Shown piece by piece: positions 330-43,760 of a DNA stretch of 59,341 bases. Under the pieces are notes generated by a model. The model saw only the letters and a list, made by a program, of their open reading frames with translations, had not been told where the DNA came from and ran no database searches. The stretch lies in NCBI GenBank assembly GCA_001804805.1, contig MHBH01000082.1, positions 1-59,341 on the forward strand, written 5' to 3'. The position numbers were made by a program, and so were the translations under genes. This DNA comes from Lentisphaerae bacterium GWF2_49_21 (GTDB lineage Bacteria > Verrucomicrobiota > Lentisphaeria > Victivallales > GWF2-50-93). The number at the start of each line of letters is the position of its first letter. The stretch's first letter is position 1.

Positions 330-926
330 ATGAAAAAAACAAAGCGTACAGCGAAGATTGTCAGGAAGACGAAGGAAACCAGCATAACCGTCGAGATAAA
401 TCTTGACGGAAGCGGGAAAAGCACTGTCTCCACCGGAATTCCATTCCTCAACCATATGCTTGAACTTTTCGCCAAGCATGGATTGTTTGATCTTGACATA
501 AGCGCCAAGGGCGACCTGCAGATAGACTGCCACCACACCATCGAGGATCTCGGGATAGTCCTGGGGGATGCGATCGCGAAGGCTGTTGGCGACAAGAAGG
601 GTATCCGCCGCTACGGCTGGTGCATTCTTCCCATGGACGAGGCGCTGGCTATGGTCTCTCTTGATCTTTCCGGCAGGCCTTACCTCGTATATGACCTTGT
701 TCCTCCGGCCGCGAAGGTGAAGGACATCGACACACGTCTCTTCCACGAATTCTTCCAGGCTCTGTCAGTTAAGAGCGGAATGAATCTCCACATAATCCTC
801 ATGAAGGGCGAAGAGGCGCACCACGCCTTTGAAGCCGTATTCAAATCCTTCGCAAAAGCCCTGGACCAGGCGGTATCGTACGACAGCCGCATCTCGGGCG
901 TTCTTTCGACCAAGGGAATGCTGTAG
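330..926 (+). CDS. hisB: Imidazoleglycerol-phosphate dehydratase
   Basis: Catalyses step 6 of histidine synthesis, dehydrating imidazoleglycerol phosphate to imidazoleacetol phosphate in the cytoplasm. The 198-residue length matches monofunctional HisB. Visible family signatures are GIPFLNHML (about 36-44), the manganese-binding DCHHTIEDLGI, the central DEALAMVSLDLSGRPY, and the second metal motif EEAHHAFEAVFK followed by the STKG C-terminus. No fused phosphatase domain is present, unlike the enterobacterial enzyme. No other his genes are nearby. The ATG at 330 gives the normal family N-terminus apart from a short basic lead. Confidence 0.97.
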   Translation: MKKTKRTAKIVRKTKETSITVEINLDGSGKSTVSTGIPFLNHMLELFAKHGLFDLDISAKGDLQIDCHHTIEDLGIVLGDAIAKAVGDKKGIRRYGWCILPMDEALAMVSLDLSGRPYLVYDLVPPAAKVKDIDTRLFHEFFQALSVKSGMNLHIILMKGEEAHHAFEAVFKSFAKALDQAVSYDSRISGVLSTKGML

Positions 927-940
927 GATTTTCAAGTAAC

Positions 941-1098
941 GCGGGCTTTCCAGCCCGCGACTTAATCTCGGGCAGGAATGCCCGAGTTACTTTTCTTGCT
1001 GTAGTCGCGTCACTCTGCTGACGTGTTTAAAAGTAGGGACGGGCTTTAGCCTGTCCCATGAATTCAAGAATGGTACATCCTAAAGGACGTACCTACTT
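941..1098. repeat. Cluster of palindromic intergenic repeats (family B)
   Basis: Three hairpins follow hisB: GCGGGCTTTCCAGCCCGC (941-958), CTCGGGCAGGAATGCCCGAG (967-986) and GGGACGGGCTTTAGCCTGTCCC's core near 1035-1056. The last unit is bounded by GTAGGGAC and GTACCTAC (1034-1096). Related units occur near 24330, 37370 and 44900. They resemble REP-type elements; no open reading frame is present. Confidence 0.6.
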
Positions 1099-1106
1099 AC
1101 AAAAAA

Positions 1107-1132
1107 AATCCCGCCGGATGGCGGGATTTTTG
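1107..1132. terminator. Bidirectional rho-independent terminator
   Basis: A GC-rich hairpin (AATCCCGCC, loop GGAT, GGCGGGATT) has an A-run before it and a T-run after it, so it can stop transcription from hisB on the plus strand and from pckG on the minus strand, which converge here. Confidence 0.85.
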
Positions 1133-1187
1133 GGAAACGTATTCAATATTATTGCCGGCCAGAGGGCAGCGCTCCAATAAGAGCTGT

Positions 1188-2996
1188 TCAGCTATTCTCC
1201 AGCCTTGACTTCAGTTCTTCGAGCTCCTTTTTCAGGGCTTCAGGAAGTTTGCTGCCGAACTTCTCATAGTTCTGCGTTATGTCATTGAGTTCATTTTTCC
1301 ATCCTTCTACATCGACCGATAGAAGTTGTTTCATGTCATTGCAGCAGAGATTGAGGCCGTCGGTATCGAAATCCTCGAGCCTTGGCAGATTTCCGATGGC
1401 GGTAGGATTTGCCTTCACATCTCCTTCGATCCTGTCGCAGATCCATTTAAGGACACGGCTGTTTTCCCCGTATCCCGGCCAGAGCCATTTCCCTTCGGCG
1501 CTCTTCCTGAACCAGTTTACGAAATAAACCTTTGGAAGATTTGCCCTGTCTGTGCGTTTTGCCATTGAAAGCCAGTGTGCGAGATAGTCGCCCATGTGGT
1601 ATCCGCAGAACGGAAGCATTGCGAACGGATCACGGCGCATCACACCTGCCTTGCCAAGTGCGGCTGTCGTGGTCTCCGAACCTGCCGAAGAACCCATGAA
1701 TACGCCATGTTCCCAGTTGAACGCCTCGTTCACAAGGGGAATCGTGGACGGACGGCGCCCACCGACAAGTATCGCTGATATTGGAACGCCTTCCGGCTTT
1801 TCCCAGTCGGGATCGAGAACCGGGCATTGGATGGCAGGTGCAGTGAAACGTGAGTTCGGATGCGCTGCCTTGCGTCCGCAGTCAGGAGTCCAGTCCTTGC
1901 CTTCCCAGTCGATCGCCTTTGCCGGAGGAGGAACTCCCATATCCTCCCACCAGACATCCCCTTCGGGAGTAAGTGCGACGTTCGTGAATATGGAATTCTT
2001 GGTCAATGACAGCATTGCGTTGGGATTTGAGTTCATTGATGTTCCTGGCGCGACTCCGAAGAATCCTGTTTCCGGATTGATGGCATAAAGTTTTCCACCT
2101 TTTCCAATTCTCATCCAGGCAATGTCGTCACCAAGGCATTTGACCTTCCATCCGGGAAGAGAAGGCTGCATCATCGCCAGATTTGTCTTTCCACAGGCGC
2201 TTGGGAATGCGGCAGCGATATAATATTTTTTATCTTTCGGGGAGGTCAGTGAAAGGATGAGCATATGTTCAGCCATCCATCCCTCTTTTCTGGCGATGAC
2301 AGAGGCTAAGCGCAGGGCAAGGCACTTTTTGCCGAGAAGTGCGTTTCCGCCGTAACCTGAACCATATGACCAGATAGAAGGCTCATCCGGGAAATGAACA
2401 ATATACTTCTTTGCCGGATCGGGTTCGCATGGCCATGGAACATCCTTCTGTCCGGCCTTCAAGGGAGCTCCGATGGAGTGCATGCACGGAATAAAATCGG
2501 TCCGGTCGCCAAGGACGTCAAGCACCTTCTTACCCATTCGGGTCATGATTTTCATGTTGACAACGACGTAGCCGGAGTCGGTAATTTCAATTCCAATCTT
2601 GTGGATGGGGGAATCAAGCGGGCCCATGGAGAAGGGGATCACATACATAGTGCGGCCTTCCATGCAGCCGCTGAACATGTCCTTGAGCTTCTTCTTCATC
2701 TCTACTGGGTCGGTCCAGTTGTTGGTCGGACCGGCATCCTCCTGCTTTTCTGAACAGATGTAGGTGCGGTCTTCGACGCGGGCGACATCGCTTGCGTGCG
2801 AGCGTGCCAGATAGCATCCGGGACGGAGCTTTTCATTTAGCTCTGTGAAAGTCCCATGTTTGACGAGTTCTTCGCAGAGATGATTGTATTCTTCCTCAGA
2901 ACCGTCGCACCAGTGGACGCGGAGCGGCCTGCATAGCTTCACGGCTTCGTCGACATACGATAGAAGTTTCTTGTTTTTTGTAAGGTTTGATATCAT
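1188..2996 (-). CDS. pckG: Phosphoenolpyruvate carboxykinase (GTP)
   Basis: Interconverts oxaloacetate + GTP and PEP + GDP + CO2, either for gluconeogenesis or, in fermenters, running in the carboxylating direction. The 602 residues match the GTP-dependent class. The kinase-1a loop with the hyper-reactive cysteine is [13 protein letters not shown] (about 264-276). Other landmarks are [40 protein letters not shown], and [19 protein letters not shown] with the guanine-binding aromatic region. The gene is monocistronic by context: a terminator lies downstream and an 88-base AT-rich gap lies upstream. The start gives the expected N-terminus. Confidence 0.97.
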
Positions 2997-3084
2997 CTGT
3001 ATATACCTTTTATTTTATGATTATTAATTCGATGTTCAAAGTTGAACGTTGGATGTTCAAATTGGTTTTTGGGCAAAGCTCATA

Positions 3085-3984
3085 TTAGAGGCTCTTGCCA
3101 GTAATCCTCTTGTATGCGTCAAGATATTTCTCATGCGTCTTTGAGACGATGTCGTCGGGAAGGTCCGGGGCAGGGGGCGTCTTGCCCCAGTTGAGGCTTT
3201 CGAGATAGTCTCTGACGAACTGCTTGTCAAGACTCGGTGGATTTCCGCCGATCTTGTACTGGTCCGCAGGCCAGAAACGGCTCGAGTCAGGGGTCAGCAC
3301 TTCATCGATAAGTATCAGATCATCGTTCATTATTCCGAATTCAAACTTGGTGTCGGCGAGGATTATGCCTTTTTTCCTGGCATAGTCTGCGGCGGTGTTA
3401 TAGACCTTGATTGAATAATCCTTGGCCTTCTGTGCGAATTTCGCACCAATCATCTCCTTTGACTTTTCAAAGCTGATGTTTTCATCGTGCGTTCCAAGTT
3501 CGGCCTTTGTCGAGGGAGTGAACAGGGCTTCATCGAGTTTCTCAGCCTGTTTATATCCCTTGCGTAGCGGAATGCCGCATACGGAACCGGTCTGCTGGTA
3601 GTCTTTCCAACCGCTTCCTGTTATGTATCCGCGGACTATGCATTCGACCGCAAGAGGCTTGGCTTTCTTCACCAGCATCGAACGGCCCTTGAGATCATTG
3701 GAATATTTCTTGAGCTTTTCCGGATATTTCGAAACATCGGCGGTGATCAGGTGGTTTGGCATCCATTTCATGAGATCAAACCAGAACAGGGAAAGGCCGG
3801 TGAGAACTCTGCCCTTGTCCGGAATTCCATTTGGCATCACGACATCGAATGCGCTCAGACGGTCGGTGGCGACGAAGAGGAGCGAATCACCGAGATCGTA
3901 GATATCGCGGACTTTGCCGCGCCTCGGCGAGGGGATTCCGTCCATTTCCGTCTGCAGGAGAGCCTTGTTCCTGTCATACTTCAT
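3085..3984 (-). CDS. purC: Phosphoribosylaminoimidazole-succinocarboxamide (SAICAR) synthase
   Basis: Joins CAIR and aspartate with ATP in purine synthesis. The 299 residues correspond to the longer form of PurC. Signatures seen are [36 protein letters not shown] at the N-terminus, [31 protein letters not shown], and DTKFEFGI followed by [14 protein letters not shown]. It lies 27 bases downstream of rplU on the same strand. Its Shine-Dalgarno AGGA sits inside a perfect hairpin immediately before the ATG (3985-4009), which may couple or restrain translation. Confidence 0.97.
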
Positions 3985-4009
3985 ATAAAAATTTCCTGGA
4001 AATTTTTAT
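3985..4009 (-). promoter_or_regulatory. Hairpin enclosing the purC ribosome binding site
   Basis: Perfect 12-base arms ATAAAAATTTCC and GGAAATTTTTAT separated by one base end directly before the purC ATG. Read on the minus strand, the AGGA of the ribosome binding site falls in the stem. Similar hairpins precede the genes at 7855 and 26532. Confidence 0.6.
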
Positions 4010-17917: not shown

Positions 17918-17945
17918 ATAAATTTCTGGCTTGCCAGAAATTTAT
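17918..17945. terminator. Shared hairpin between convergent genes
   Basis: Perfect 13-base arms (ATAAATTTCTGGC and GCCAGAAATTTAT) flank TT. The right arm contains the stop codon of the minus-strand HD gene, and the hairpin lies 33 bases beyond the plus-strand phosphoesterase gene, so it may serve both. Confidence 0.6.
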
Positions 17946-18589
17946 CCGTAGACTTCGCGGTTGAGCTGCCTGAAGAATTCGTGCATGAAGTCGGAACGCT
18001 GTTTGGCGACCTTGCGGCCGGTCTTTGTCAGCAGCTTGCCATGGATGTGGCGGAGTTTTACAAGATATTCGCGGTATGCGGAATCTTCTGAGCTGTATGA
18101 ATCCGATCCGAGTGCTTCCTTCTCCGTGTTATGGAGTTTCGCTCCAATCCTTCCGGCGAAATGGAAGGCCCTGCCAACTCCTACGGCTCCAATTGAGTCA
18201 AGCTTGTCAGCATCATAGACGATCTTCTCTTCAATAAGCAAGGGGCTGTGCCCCCCGCGGTAACGGTGGGTTTTCACGCAGTTGCAGACCTTTTTGATGA
18301 ACTCCTCGTTGCGGAATTCGCAATTTTTGAGGAATTTATCGGCGAGTTCAGATCCTATGACCGCATGGCATAGTTTTCCTTTGCTTTTGAGTTCTTCCGG
18401 ACGTGCGATATCATGAAGGACAGCTGCGCATTCGACGACCTTCATGTCGGCTTTCTTTTCTCCGTCTGCAATCATCCGGGCATTGTGAAGGACACGGCGA
18501 GTATGTTCCCAGTCGTGGCAGCCTGGCGCCGATTCCAAGCGCTTTCGTACCGCATCGGAAAGTTTCTTGAGTTTTTGAGAATAGTTCAT
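17942..18589 (-). CDS. HD-domain phosphohydrolase
   Basis: A 215-residue cytoplasmic HD hydrolase of the YedJ-like type. Metal ligands are visible in CHDWEHTRRV (H25, D26) and VLHDIARPEEL (H59, D60), followed by HAVIGSELA, the second-helix histidine of the fold, and later VYDADKLDSIGAVGVGRAF. It likely hydrolyses a nucleotide or other phosphoester. No ribosome site is obvious before the ATG. No operon partner is visible. Confidence 0.88.
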   Translation of the reverse strand: MNYSQKLKKLSDAVRKRLESAPGCHDWEHTRRVLHNARMIADGEKKADMKVVECAAVLHDIARPEELKSKGKLCHAVIGSELADKFLKNCEFRNEEFIKKVCNCVKTHRYRGGHSPLLIEEKIVYDADKLDSIGAVGVGRAFHFAGRIGAKLHNTEKEALGSDSYSSEDSAYREYLVKLRHIHGKLLTKTGRKVAKQRSDFMHEFFRQLNREVYG

Positions 18590-18685: not shown

Positions 18686-19918
18686 TTATGTATATTTCAT
18701 TTTCCAGTCTAAAAGGTCCTTATTTATAAAATTAGGAATTTTAATACGACGTGGAAGATTTCTATAATTATTTTTTGTATAAGCCAGTTCAGTAAGAATA
18801 ATTATTCCATTTGGTAAAATACTTAAATGTCTGCTGTCAAATAGTTGATGGATATCTGAACGCAGACATAGGCCGTTTTCTATTCTATCAGAACCATTGT
18901 ATCTCACGTCTATAATATGAGATGCTTCCAAAACATTTTCAATATTAACTCCAGTAATCATACACGTTGAATTGAAAGCAGTTAAAATATTATTTCTAAA
19001 TATGTTCTGGTTGGGCCTTTCTAGAACTTCTCTTGACACTTTTTTGCGTTCAATATTTGCTGGTATTTGAGTTTCTCTTATTGTTCTAACTACAGTGTCA
19101 AGTTCTTTATGAATAAGTTTCAGTTTGCGGAGTTCAAGAACTTCCGTCATTGAAATGCTGGAAAGAAAATACTTCTCATTTTTATTGGCTCTTATTAGAT
19201 GAATCGTTTTACAGAAACCATAATTTGAAAGGAATAGCAAGAATTCTCTTGCCATCCTTTTATCATTTGAGTTTGGAGCACAATCTGGCCATGTGGAAAC
19301 ATCAATTTGTCCATTACGATGTTGTATTATTGCATCTGCATAATCTTCCAGCTTTGCTTTGGCTCCAGCAAGAGGAATGATAATCATTACAAGTTCAGAA
19401 GGAGTAATGTAGGCTTCATTTGAGCCATATTTAACTGATAACTTTGCTAAGACATCCAAAATTAACTCAAGTGGTTTTATTATTAAACCGGCATTGTCCC
19501 AATCGTTAGCATCTTCTGCTATTCTTCTGTTAGGAAGCTCCAATGTTTTTACAACTGTTGTTGCAAATTCAACTTGAGTAATTTCCCCTGTAGCTAGCAG
19601 TTGACCAAAAGGGCTAACGACAATTTTCCCATGAGTTTCTTCAAGCAATCCCAAAGCTTTCCAATACTGTCCTGAATTTCTAAGTAGGTTTCTGTCCTTG
19701 GTTCTTACTAAATCAACCTCTGATTTTGTTTCTTTTTGAACTATAGAAAGTCCTTTCAAAATTTTTGTTGAACTTGGTGCATGATTATTAAATTTATTAA
19801 ATACACGGAGAACTCCAAGGAAAATTGGGGGTTTATTTAGAGATTCAGTTGGCTGAAAAGTTGCCCAGCGCCACTTGTAATTAGGGAACGGTTTCAATGG
19901 TGTTTTTATTAATTTCAT
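18686..19918 (-). CDS. HNH restriction endonuclease (predicted)
   Basis: A 410-residue protein ending in an HNH_2-type nuclease domain: FNSTCMITGVNIENVLEASHIIDVRYNGSDRIENGLCLRSDIHQLFD (about residues 318-365). The metal-binding His lies in ASHI, the Asn in ENGLC, and a His-Asp pair in IHQLFD. The N-terminal 300 residues match nothing I recognise and presumably hold the DNA-recognition part. It sits six bases after two tandem cytosine methyltransferases in one operon, which makes it the cognate type II endonuclease. Base composition is markedly AT-rich. Confidence 0.85.
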   Translation of the reverse strand: MKLIKTPLKPFPNYKWRWATFQPTESLNKPPIFLGVLRVFNKFNNHAPSSTKILKGLSIVQKETKSEVDLVRTKDRNLLRNSGQYWKALGLLEETHGKIVVSPFGQLLATGEITQVEFATTVVKTLELPNRRIAEDANDWDNAGLIIKPLELILDVLAKLSVKYGSNEAYITPSELVMIIIPLAGAKAKLEDYADAIIQHRNGQIDVSTWPDCAPNSNDKRMAREFLLFLSNYGFCKTIHLIRANKNEKYFLSSISMTEVLELRKLKLIHKELDTVVRTIRETQIPANIERKKVSREVLERPNQNIFRNNILTAFNSTCMITGVNIENVLEASHIIDVRYNGSDRIENGLCLRSDIHQLFDSRHLSILPNGIIILTELAYTKNNYRNLPRRIKIPNFINKDLLDWKMKYT

Positions 19919-19924
19919 GATGGT

Positions 19925-20848
19925 TTATTCCTTTGGAAATATTGAAGCAACCGCAAAAGCTAATAATGGCGGAACAGCATTGCCTATTTGCCTATATACA
20001 GATGAATTAGTTCCTTCAAAAATAAAATCAATAGGAAATGATTGTGTTAATGCTAATTCTCTAGCTGACATCCTTCTGTGATTATTGGGATGGTGTAAAA
20101 CAACCACTCCACCTTTTTCATCTCCTCTTGCAGTAACCGTAGGAGCAGGCCTTGTTGGATCAATTGCCCTATTTCCCAGATAACCATTGAATTTTAGCTT
20201 AAATCTTGAACAAGTATGATTACTCAAGCTATGATAATCCTCGGGCTCGGGAATATTTTTTAAAGCTTCACCAATAGAAACCCATTTTTTTCTGTTAGAG
20301 AATAAATCAGGTGTTTCTTCGTGAGTTGGTTCAGGATGTTCCAGATTATATTCTATATCGTTTCTAACACCCAGGATAATTACTCTTTCTCGATTCTGAG
20401 GCACTCCATAGTCAGCAGCATTTAATACCTTGTATTTAACTCTATATCCAGCTTTTTTAAAATCGTCTATTATTAATTCAAATACCTTTCCATTTAAAAA
20501 GTTCAAGATACCTTTAACGTTTTCAGCTAAAAAGAACTTTGGCTGTTTATCAATTAAAACCCTAAGAAGTTCTAAGTACAGTTTATTTCTTTCATCGTGT
20601 TCATTTCTTTTTGCATTGGCGACAGAAAAACCTTGGCATGGGAAACCGCCAACTAAAATATCATGATCTGGTATTTCACATGAGGGGATATCTGATATGT
20701 CTTTGCAGATAATGTGCTTGCCAATATTTCTGCGATAAGTATTTGTTGCATCAAGGAAATTATCATTAGCCCAAATAATATTGTGCCCAGCTCTAATAAA
20801 GCCAAGATCAAGACCACCTGCACCAGAAAAAAGAGAAACTACTTTCAT
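19925..20848 (-). CDS. DNA (cytosine-5) methyltransferase M1
   Basis: A 307-residue m5C methyltransferase with the ordered motifs: I (FSGAGGLDLG), IV (GGFPCQGFS, catalytic C71), VI (FLAENVKG), VIII (QNRERV), IX (RPAPTVTARG) and X (YRQIGNAVPPLLA). The target-recognition stretch between VIII and IX is short. It is a clear duplicate of the upstream M2, with the same length and many shared blocks (AGH.IIWAND, HRRMS.RE.AL.Q.FP). It overlaps M2 by four bases (ATGA). Confidence 0.96.
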   Translation of the reverse strand: MKVVSLFSGAGGLDLGFIRAGHNIIWANDNFLDATNTYRRNIGKHIICKDISDIPSCEIPDHDILVGGFPCQGFSVANAKRNEHDERNKLYLELLRVLIDKQPKFFLAENVKGILNFLNGKVFELIIDDFKKAGYRVKYKVLNAADYGVPQNRERVIILGVRNDIEYNLEHPEPTHEETPDLFSNRKKWVSIGEALKNIPEPEDYHSLSNHTCSRFKLKFNGYLGNRAIDPTRPAPTVTARGDEKGGVVVLHHPNNHRRMSARELALTQSFPIDFIFEGTNSSVYRQIGNAVPPLLAFAVASIFPKE

Positions 20849-21768
20849 ACTACTATTGCTTTAAGCTGCTTTAATTTATTTCCTAAATGGTGTCCGAATA
20901 AAACAGGGACAGCATTGCCAACTTGCCTATACATTGATCCCATTGAGCCGACAAATTCAAAGTCCACCGGAAAAGTTTGCACCAGTGCGCTTTCGCGAAC
21001 GCTCATTCTTCTATGGTTCTTTGGGTGTTGAATAGCACAAACACCGCCTTTGCCATTTCCTCTTGCAAGTATTGTAGGCGATGGTTTGGAAGGGTCAGTT
21101 TTTCTGTGCCCAGTAAAATTTCTGTTAGTTACTTTATATTTTGAATAAATATGATTTTTAAATTTTAATTTCGGGTCTTCTGGTTCTGGAATGTTTTTTA
21201 AAGCGTTGAAAATGCTTATCCAAGTGGTTTTGTTGTGTGTGGGGGGGGGGAATTGAAATTCCTTTTCTTTTGGCAAATCTTTTCTTGTTCCTGCAATTAT
21301 TACTCTAATCCTTGTTTGAGGGACACCAAAGTCAGCCATGTTAAATAATTGATATTTAACTCTATAACCTGCATCAGAAAAATCTTTTACTATTTTCTTG
21401 ATTGCGTTTCCCTTATCTAAACATAAAATACCTCTAACATTTTCAGCAATGAAATAATAAGGTTTTTTACCTTTAATAACTCTGTGAAAATGTTTGTAAA
21501 GTTTGTTACGTTCATCACCTGCGGTTCTCAGCATATTTGCCATTGAAAAGCCTTGGCAAGGGAAACCGCCTACGACTACATCGCAATCAGGGATATCTTC
21601 TAGTTTTATAATTGATATATCGCTGCATACTATATGTTTGCCGATATTCAGTCTGTATGTTTCACAACTGTCGGGATCAATGTCATTAGCCCATATAATT
21701 TTATGTCCAGCTTTAATAAGTCCTAAATCCAGTCCGCCAGCACCTGAAAATAATGATACGATTTTCAT
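20845..21768 (-). CDS. DNA (cytosine-5) methyltransferase M2, with a C10 tract
   Basis: A 307-residue paralogue of M1 with motifs I (FSGAGGLDLG), IV (GGFPCQGFS, C71), VI (FIAENVRG), VIII (QTRIRV), IX (KPSPTILARG) and X (YRQVGNAVPVLFG). A run of ten C on the coding strand (21241-21250) encodes the prolines of FQFPPPTHNK (174-176), where M1 has a different spacer. A one-base slip there would truncate the protein before the target-recognition region. Two different m5C enzymes in one system usually mean an asymmetric recognition site, one enzyme per strand. Confidence 0.95.
   Translation of the reverse strand: MKIVSLFSGAGGLDLGLIKAGHKIIWANDIDPDSCETYRLNIGKHIVCSDISIIKLEDIPDCDVVVGGFPCQGFSMANMLRTAGDERNKLYKHFHRVIKGKKPYYFIAENVRGILCLDKGNAIKKIVKDFSDAGYRVKYQLFNMADFGVPQTRIRVIIAGTRKDLPKEKEFQFPPPTHNKTTWISIFNALKNIPEPEDPKLKFKNHIYSKYKVTNRNFTGHRKTDPSKPSPTILARGNGKGGVCAIQHPKNHRRMSVRESALVQTFPVDFEFVGSMGSMYRQVGNAVPVLFGHHLGNKLKQLKAIVV
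21241..21250. repeat. Homopolymer G10/C10 inside M2
   Basis: Ten consecutive G on the plus strand in an otherwise AT-rich gene. It is either a slippage site for phase variation or a place where an assembly error would be likely; the frame is open as given. Confidence 0.85.
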
Positions 21769-21771
21769 AGT

Positions 21772-22098
21772 TTAATATTTATTTAGCGCTTTAATATATT
21801 TAATTTTATCCTCAGCAACTTTCAATACTTGTGGAGCGCAATCCTCATCTGCAATTTCATAGGCAATTTTCTCACTTAGAAATTGAACCATTAATTGGGT
21901 TCTGTCAATCTCCAAGATTTCGGAAAGCTTGTTAATATTGTCTTTTGTTGGTTTTCTATCTCCTTTCTCTATTTTGCTTAAAATAGCTTGGTCAATGTCC
22001 AAAAAGGCAGAAACTTGCCGAAGAAGCAAACCTTTTTCTACCCTTTTCGATTTAATGACTTGTCCTAAAGTATGCATTTGAATTATTGTTCTTGACAT
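21772..22098 (-). CDS. XRE-family control protein of the restriction-modification system
   Basis: A 108-residue protein with a lambda-repressor-type HTH: LGQVIKSKRVEKGLLLRQVSAFLDIDQAILSKIEKGDRKPTKDNINKLSEIL (about 10-62). A helical tail follows. Placed first in the operon, three bases before M2, it fits a C (controller) protein that times methyltransferase and nuclease expression. The start may be ATG at 22098 or ATG at 22077; a perfect palindrome covers the first and lies just upstream of the second. Confidence 0.85.
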   Translation of the reverse strand: MSRTIIQMHTLGQVIKSKRVEKGLLLRQVSAFLDIDQAILSKIEKGDRKPTKDNINKLSEILEIDRTQLMVQFLSEKIAYEIADEDCAPQVLKVAEDKIKYIKALNKY

Positions 22099-22108
22099 AT
22101 TATGTCAA
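22092..22108. promoter_or_regulatory. Candidate C-box operator
   Basis: TTGACATA and TATGTCAA form a perfect 17-base palindrome with a one-base centre, over or just upstream of the start of the controller gene. The position suits autoregulation by the XRE protein. Confidence 0.6.
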
Positions 22109-22253
22109 AAATATAGCGACAAAATAAAAATACAAATTCATTTTCTTAAAAATATAAGATTTTTTTCTTACATTAAGATTTTAGATATAAGAAGAGTGCT
22201 AATTCGCACCTGTAGATGATTCTTCCAAATCTTCCTTTTGAAATTCCTGACGG

Positions 22254-22361
22254 TCAAGATTTCGATCTCTTTAATGCTGATTCATAGGATATGCCTTTTC
22301 CGTCAGCAAGCTGTTTCCTTGCTTTTCCGATGACGTCCTCGTTCAGCAATATCCTGTTCAT
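22254..22361 (-). CDS. Possible small protein, 35 residues
   Basis: MNRILLNEDVIGKARKQLAD begins a 35-residue frame that ends GISYESALKRSKS. TTGAGGA lies upstream of the ATG at a suitable distance. It looks helical and antitoxin-like, but no family is recognised and no partner toxin is adjacent. It could be a remnant at the right edge of the restriction island. Confidence 0.3.
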   Translation of the reverse strand: MNRILLNEDVIGKARKQLADGKGISYESALKRSKS

Positions 22362-22540
22362 AGGGCAATCCTCAATATATAGAATTTTTAGCGACAAAGT
22401 TGATAAAAATTTTATCCCTGCTACATTTCCCCGCTTTGCCGATAAAAGGGCATAAGCGAAAAAACCGGGAGACAGGGTTCCAAAATAAGCTTGACACCCT
22501 CCTTCCGCAAGCAAAAAAAACAAACAAGGAAGAGGAGATC

Positions 22541-23137
22541 ATGCAAGATCGAGCAAAACACAAACTATGCCGCCGCCTGGGTGTCTGCATCTGGGGGAAA
22601 GTGAAATGTCCGAGCGTGAGAAGGCCATATCCGGCCGGACCGCACGGAAAAAACGCACAGAAGAAACTTTCAACCTATGGAGAACTCCTCCTGCAGAAAC
22701 AGAGGCTGAAGGTCTATTACGCCCTTACAGAGAAACAACTGCACCTTGCTTTCGTTGATGCTAAAAAGGGAAAGACACAGACAGACGAGAAGCTCCTCCG
22801 CAACCTTGAACTCAGGCTCGATGCCGCAACTTACCGTAGCGGACTCGCCCCGACAATTCATGCGGCAAGACAGTTTGTCGTCCACCGCCATATAATTGTT
22901 GATGGAAAGATAGTGGATCGTCCGTCCTACAAGCTCCGTCCAGGACAGGGATTCAGCATAAACGTCGAAAAAGATGCTGCTCTTGCGAATGTCGCAAAGA
23001 ACGCGAACTGCGAGGTTCCTCCTTACCTTGAAGTTGACAGGGAACATTGCAAGGTCAAGGTCGTCAGGGAGCCTCTGATAGAGGAAAATCCCACCGGCGT
23101 TGAGATCATGAAGGTCGTCGAATTCTACGCCAGATAA
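22541..23137 (+). CDS. rpsD: 30S ribosomal protein S4
   Basis: A primary 16S rRNA-binding protein of 198 residues. It has the family N-terminus (KLCRRLGV... KCPSVRRPYPAGPHG), YGELLLQKQRLKVYYALTEKQ, and the S4 RNA-binding domain LRNLELRLDAATYRSGLAPTIHAARQFVVHRHIIVDGKIVDRPSYKL. The ATG at 22541 is chosen for AGGAAGAGGAGATC upstream; a 47-codon extension is rejected. The first zinc-site cysteine of C-type S4 is His here (KHKLC), while other cysteines remain. The gene stands alone, away from any ribosomal operon, and ends in a strong terminator. Confidence 0.96.
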   Translation: MQDRAKHKLCRRLGVCIWGKVKCPSVRRPYPAGPHGKNAQKKLSTYGELLLQKQRLKVYYALTEKQLHLAFVDAKKGKTQTDEKLLRNLELRLDAATYRSGLAPTIHAARQFVVHRHIIVDGKIVDRPSYKLRPGQGFSINVEKDAALANVAKNANCEVPPYLEVDREHCKVKVVREPLIEENPTGVEIMKVVEFYAR

Positions 23138-43581: not shown

Positions 43582-43760
43582 ATGCGCTGTAGGCGCAGGA
43601 TAATAAAGCCTATGGCTTCAGCCATAGGTCATGGTTTTGAAAATGTATCCACCCTGAAGGGGTGGGGTAAATTCCCTCCGTCCCTACAGGACGGATCTAT
43701 TTTTATACGATACCTATGGCTGAAGCCACAGGCTATATCCCCCTATCCCTTCGGGATAAA
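43582..43760. repeat. Cluster of six short hairpins
   Basis: Successive hairpins: GCGCTGTAGGCGC, CCTATGGCTTCAGCCATAGG, ACCCTGAAGGGGT, CGTCCCTACAGGACGG, CCTATGGCTGAAGCCACAGG and ATCCCTTCGGGAT. Each has a different stem. They are not direct repeats with spacers, so this is not a CRISPR array. Confidence 0.6.

Follow-up and report, generated by a model that had tools for sequence, protein, structure and literature searches.

Switching by slippage at simple repeats has been described for several bacterial methyltransferases. In Mycoplasma agalactiae, the CpG methyltransferase, a C5 methyltransferase, is switched at a poly(G) tract whose length ranges from 6 to 11 between strains (PMC9465063). The Helicobacter pylori gene hpyAVIBM carries AG repeats and is a candidate phase-variable C5 methyltransferase with frame-shifted alleles (PMC3411764), while homopolymer switching is reported for a Type IIG enzyme of H. 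pylori whose endonuclease domain is active (PMC3936762). In Campylobacter, poly-G/C tracts of at least 7 are listed as putatively phase-variable; switching has been demonstrated for some of the genes with tracts of at least 8, and lengths 9 and 10 are the commonest (PMC6321876). Type I and III systems are the subject of the repeat surveys to which PMC7394358 refers. Here we describe a run of ten C (C10) within M2, a C5 cytosine DNA methyltransferase gene of a predicted Type II restriction-modification (RM) operon, in a stretch of 59,341 nucleotides from Lentisphaerae bacterium GWF2_49_21 (assembly GCA_001804805.1, contig MHBH01000082.1, positions 1 to 59,341), called the window below. The explanation towards which we lean is that the tract is an incidental, lineage-specific homopolymer, locally mutable, which arose by ordinary base substitutions in an acquired Type II operon.

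The forward strand of the window carries exactly ten G at positions 21241 to 21250, which gives C10 in the coding strand of M2 (20845 to 21768, reverse strand); no other C/G run of at least 7 occurs anywhere in the window. The tract is read in the codons TTC CCC CCC CCC, i.e., F173, P174, P175 and P176, within the peptide F-P-P-P-T-H. It lies 3' of QTRIRVI (residues 151–157), which we take to be motif VIII, and 5' of the variable region. The sequence-only reading had placed ten C at this point, between motif VIII and the target-recognition region of an AT-rich gene, and had reported the neighbouring methyltransferase gene M1 to be free of such a tract. All of this agrees with our analysis: the G + C content is 36% in M2, 35% in the RM island and 48% in the window, and the equivalent site of M1 reads HPEPTH. 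In an alignment of 29 sequences (27 of the 35 full-length M2 relatives, the M2 of the window and M1), which also served as input for structure prediction, P174 is invariant, position 175 is variable and position 176 is mostly proline. In the predicted model of M2, the tract corresponds to a loop following the strand of residues 154–162, with a mean predicted local distance difference test (pLDDT) score of 87.8 for the whole protein and 97 over residues 171–180.

The tract is not shared by related genes. A C/G run of at least 7 was found in none of the 35 full-length M2 orthologues, and the conservation of the tract, or difference in its length between orthologues, expected of a phase-variable gene is thus missing; over 36 M2 segments (the 35 and the partial L044), the longest runs are C5 and G6. 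The loci L043, L045, L072 and L073, whose better match was to M1, were omitted from this run-length comparison. Likewise, Pro-Pro-Pro is absent from all 35 full-length orthologues, and in the operon of the window it occurs in M2 only, not in M1, the endonuclease or the regulator. The tract site was read as codons for 25 of the 38 loci, as protein alone for 12 and not at all for the partial L044; the L039 row of the codon reading is its M1, while its M2 (3079–3999) is the gene used in the run, tree and Pro-Pro-Pro comparisons.

Compared with its seven closest relatives, M2 of the window aligns without gaps, the sole gap otherwise being the shorter end of L013. Within the tract, 5 or 6 of the 10 bases differ with no insertion or deletion, and substitutions alone can therefore explain it. 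The closest relative, L009, differs at six of the ten bases, all of them changed to the same base at unchanged length. C10 is reachable by single substitutions at fixed length, because relatives have Gln (CAA/CAG) at position 175 (L014, L015, L029 and L030) or read TTT CCT GAA CCA (L009 and L042). M2 shows no trace of a past slip, although a slip followed by its reversal would leave none. Slippage tracts were also sought elsewhere in the operon family, and no C/G run reaches 8 in the genes of the relatives; the longest runs there are A9 (M1 of L042) and G7 (M1 of L014 and L040).

First-order simulations, whose figures were computed after the fact, gave a C/G run of at least 10 in 0.02% of 5000 simulated M2 sequences, 0.1% of 3000 simulated islands and 10% of 100 simulated windows, and 40 of 100 whole-window shuffles reached or exceeded the observed number of C8 matches. 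The genome itself (5.9 Mb) holds 13 distinct C/G runs of at least 9 against about 37 expected, and four runs of 10, with none longer, against about 9.5 expected, these expectations being first-order ones derived from the dinucleotide make-up of the window. The tract enrichment that would mark phase-variable genes is thus absent. The tract is unusual for the M2 gene but not for the genome, because it is rarely reached in simulated M2 sequences, yet runs of 10 are fewer than expected genome-wide. C/G runs of at least 9 are present in all eight genomes of the family, i.e., this one and seven others. The genus Helicobacter is rich in C/G tracts, and Helicobacter brantae was therefore picked as the contrast genome; its 1.7 Mb contain 308 overlapping matches to C9, compared with 17 in 5.9 Mb here.

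The 12 other genomic runs were inspected for open frames, and four frames crossed by a run had Pfam matches above the cut-off: an alpha-L-rhamnosidase, a VWA-domain protein, a solute-binding/PAS protein and a diaminopimelate epimerase. The domain match spans the run in the epimerase and in the solute-binding protein. In the epimerase gene dapF (L063, G000:C32, frame 380–1228, minus strand), A9G9 lies in frame, and none of the five relatives for which codons were read shares the run. It follows that such runs come about in ordinary genes here. In a genome of the same genus, the dapF homologue (L102, G002:C3:76365-77180) has one TGA within the matched stretch.

The operon consists of a regulator, M2, M1 and an HNH endonuclease (R), in this order, and all four frames are intact. 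M2 (307 residues) matches PF00145 over residues 1–300 (E = 1.3e-76), and its nearest solved relative is M.HaeIII (1dct, E = 3.6e-50). PCQ is the catalytic motif of C5 cytosine methyltransferases, and GGFPCQGFS is invariant across the 29 aligned sequences, in keeping with the assignment of M2 to this family. M1 (19925 to 20848, reverse strand) encodes a second C5 cytosine DNA methyltransferase of 307 residues (PF00145, E = 7.6e-81), which is 56% identical to M2. Its start overlaps the M2 stop by 4 nt (ATGA), and an overlap at the same offset (0) recurs in 7 of the 34 relatives that have both genes. R (18686 to 19918, reverse strand; 410 residues) is a predicted HNH restriction endonuclease with an HNH_2 domain (PF13391, E = 1.8e-12) near its C-terminus, at residues 319–367; it matches HNH models of PADLOC, one of which is described as a Type II restriction enzyme. 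By eye, AAAGGA stands at -16 to -11 relative to the start of R, which seems to possess its own ribosome-binding site; no clear site was seen for M1. The 108-residue helix-turn-helix protein at 21772 to 22098 (reverse strand; HTH_3, E = 2.3e-10) is a candidate controller (C) protein of the operon, with HTH_VI as its best PADLOC match (3.6e-13) and only a weak match to Control_protein (5.9e-05). A homologue of it stands upstream of M2 in 2 of 38 loci (L011 and L012).

The Type II gene unit, M2-M1 followed by R, is conserved in 31 of 38 loci, among which R of L019 matches in its first part only and R of L020 lies in two frames. The latter belongs to an operon from a metagenome-assembled genome of Legionella sp. 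(L020:5937-7158), and no long homopolymer is seen by eye at the break. A tree of 74 rows placed 34 M1 and 36 M2 rows in two groups, with support of 93/90 and 95/89, respectively; the rows L037, L043, L072 and L073, labelled M1, fell outside both groups on branches flagged as long by the program. As the two groups travel together, both methyltransferases are probably needed. The operon is best read as an ordinary predicted Type II RM system.

A change of tract length would truncate M2 from 307 residues to 202, 183, 203 and 184 for 8, 9, 11 and 12 C, respectively, in line with the earlier claim that a one-base slip (length 9 or 11, 183 or 203 residues) cuts the protein short. The part lost would include what we take to be motifs IX and X. 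Slipped products should be inactive because the target-recognition region and these motifs are lost. M2 thus has two properties of a phase-variable gene, an in-frame tract at or above the switching length and loss of frame upon slippage, with loss of function as the expected outcome. Switching M2 off may lower M1 as well, given that the M1 start lies within the M2 stop and that no ribosome-binding site is clearly visible for M1. Cells without M2 should cleave their own DNA, because R is separate and seemingly has its own ribosome-binding site; losing M2, and perhaps some M1, while R is still made should be self-damaging. Genes for MutS and MutL are present in the genome, and in other bacteria slippage is more frequent when mismatch repair is lacking (PMC2430213).

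The sequence-only reading had proposed possible phase variation and had pointed to homopolymer tracts in methyltransferases as a known switch. The latter is borne out by the poly(G) tract of the M. agalactiae enzyme, and of the proposal itself the length, the frame and the truncation stand. However, the comparison with relatives suggests a run that arose recently and by chance, and an evolved on/off switch is not supported, considering that orthologues lack the tract, that the genome shows no excess of tracts (17 C9 matches against the 308 of H. brantae), that MutS and MutL are present, that no past slip is visible and that R would probably be left on. We regard a genuine switch, in which slippage at C10 turns M2 off and on, as unlikely, even though a tract of length 10 in frame, slips that truncate to 183–184 or 202–203 residues, the low chance of such a run in M2 and the recurrent M2/M1 overlap all fit it. 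In such a case the M2-off state may also lower M1, so that some of the cells would differ in methylation across the entire site. The precedents (the poly(G) C5 methyltransferase, the AG repeats of hpyAVIBM and the Type IIG homopolymer) also favour a switch, but the two C5 cases seem to lack a partner endonuclease and the Type IIG enzyme holds both activities in one protein, unlike the operon of the window with its intact and separate R. We consider a population-level switch of a whole Type II system by one-base slippage decidedly improbable; in it, truncated M2 would lower M1 through translational coupling, and off-cells would die by restricting themselves or form a minority altered in restriction. 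If true, it would be a slippage switch in which turning modification off should be lethal.

The run could also be an artefact of consensus or assembly, the true sequence being close to the F-P-E/Q-P-T-H of the relatives with a G-rich miscall in its place. The six differences from L009, all to one base with the length exactly kept, would be explained in this way, and odd C/G runs do occur in public assemblies such as G435, the genome of L042. We nevertheless consider an artefact quite unlikely, as the run lies inside a long contig, in frame and in a plausible loop predicted with high confidence, and as the genome has other runs of 9 or 10 within open frames of recognisable genes. In G435, one strand carries 122 C9 matches and the other 3; these may come from a small number of very long runs or, as we guess, from artefacts. 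An action of the tract through its product is extremely unlikely. Pro-Pro-Pro could slow ribosomes in an EF-P-dependent manner, and the motif, which among the operon genes and the M2 relatives is confined to this M2, could lower M2 relative to M1; the effect of one such motif on translation is, however, often modest.

An incidental origin by substitution is thus the account that we find fairly probable, and several points weigh against it. Such a tract is rare in an AT-rich gene (0.0002 by simulation; about 0.0007 for F-P-P-P coded as C10, given the codon use of the four operon genes), and its length of 10 is typical of Campylobacter tracts (PMC6321876). It is also the most diverged 10-nt stretch of M2 relative to L009, equalled by none but itself among 912; against L010, L011, L012, L013, L014 and L042, however, 49, 9, 10, 63, 81 and 14 of 912 stretches are as diverged. 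At columns kept by at least six of the seven relatives, changes unique to this M2 number three in the tract, a value that 17 stretches reach and that is not extreme, the maximum being four. A general drift of the acquired gene towards C was ruled out as the source of the tract, since M2 outside it is no richer in G + C than the relatives. On the substitution account, the tract would have arisen in a tolerant loop (F-P-x-P-T-H) of M2, and one-base slips would occur there at some raised rate. Slipped cells would lose M2, leaving one strand of the site unmethylated with the endonuclease still on, and self-restriction would probably eliminate them unless R were lost as well. The tract would then be a liability kept at 10 by purifying selection rather than a selected switch.

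The flanks of the operon were compared with three genomes of the same genus. An HD-domain gene (17942 to 18589, reverse strand) and a gene at 22541 to 23137 (forward strand), named by eye as presumably ribosomal protein S4-like, flank the operon; they are adjacent in two of the three genomes (G001 and G002), with gaps of 248 and 223 bases versus 3951 in the window. No M2 was found in these two genomes. Similarity to G001 ends at about 18624 and restarts at about 22370. The third genome (G003) gave no S4 match and has a different gene beside the HD gene. M2 relatives with 78–83% identity are scattered across phyla. Judging from its neighbourhood and relatives, the RM operon is horizontally acquired. 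About 270 additional bases (22099–22369) separate the regulator from the sequence that again resembles the empty G001 site.

No close M2 orthologue was found among 147 other genomes of the same group, six of which gave distant matches of 33–50% identity, and none of 386 other genomes of the phylum, a set overlapping the former, had an M2 match at E <= 1e-70. Viral contigs yielded two distant relatives at 40% identity, nothing closer, and no match to the flank pattern; phages gave no M2 match at E <= 1e-60, and four plasmid records reached 38–42% identity, none closer. Two further C5 cytosine methyltransferase genes are present in the genome (G000:C32:208169-209077 and G000:C5:162310-163359). 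Elsewhere in the window, two Acido-Lenti-1 RNAs (RF01687) lie on opposite strands, 84 bases apart (43583–43628, reverse; 43713–43758, forward).

M.HaeIII acts as the single methyltransferase of its system. It is the nearest solved homologue of M2 over residues 1–300 (PDB 1dct and 3ubt), and its aligned loop reads LPPIPH versus F-P-P-P-T-H in M2. Among the switching systems, the CpG methyltransferase of M. agalactiae resembles M2 in being a C5 methyltransferase with a mid-gene G/C homopolymer whose change in length truncates the product. Its active variation was shown by strain tract lengths together with fragment-length analysis, whereas M2 is represented by a single sequence; unlike it, M2 has a separate and intact endonuclease and no tract in its relatives. 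H. pylori hpyAVIBM (M2.HpyAVI) likewise encodes a C5 methyltransferase, one of an operon pair, with a repeat in its coding region, but the repeat is an AG dinucleotide, the partner is an adenine methyltransferase and it is described as the remnant of a defunct system (PMC3411764, PMC3936762). The poly-G contingency loci of Campylobacter share base and length with the M2 tract (PMC6321876), while C/G runs of at least 9 in the present genome stay below first-order expectation. In our literature search, which is not proof of absence, we noticed no paper on a poly-C tract in a C5 methyltransferase of a complete Type II system. The tract of M2 thus shares its type and length with known switches and lacks both comparative features that could be tested. 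If it does not vary, it calls for caution, as a C10 would pass the usual cut-offs for phase variation without a comparative sign of selection for switching. If it varies, slippage-switched C5 methyltransferases, which in the cases compared seem to lack a partner endonuclease, would be extended to a bacterium that has mismatch repair genes and a complete Type II system.
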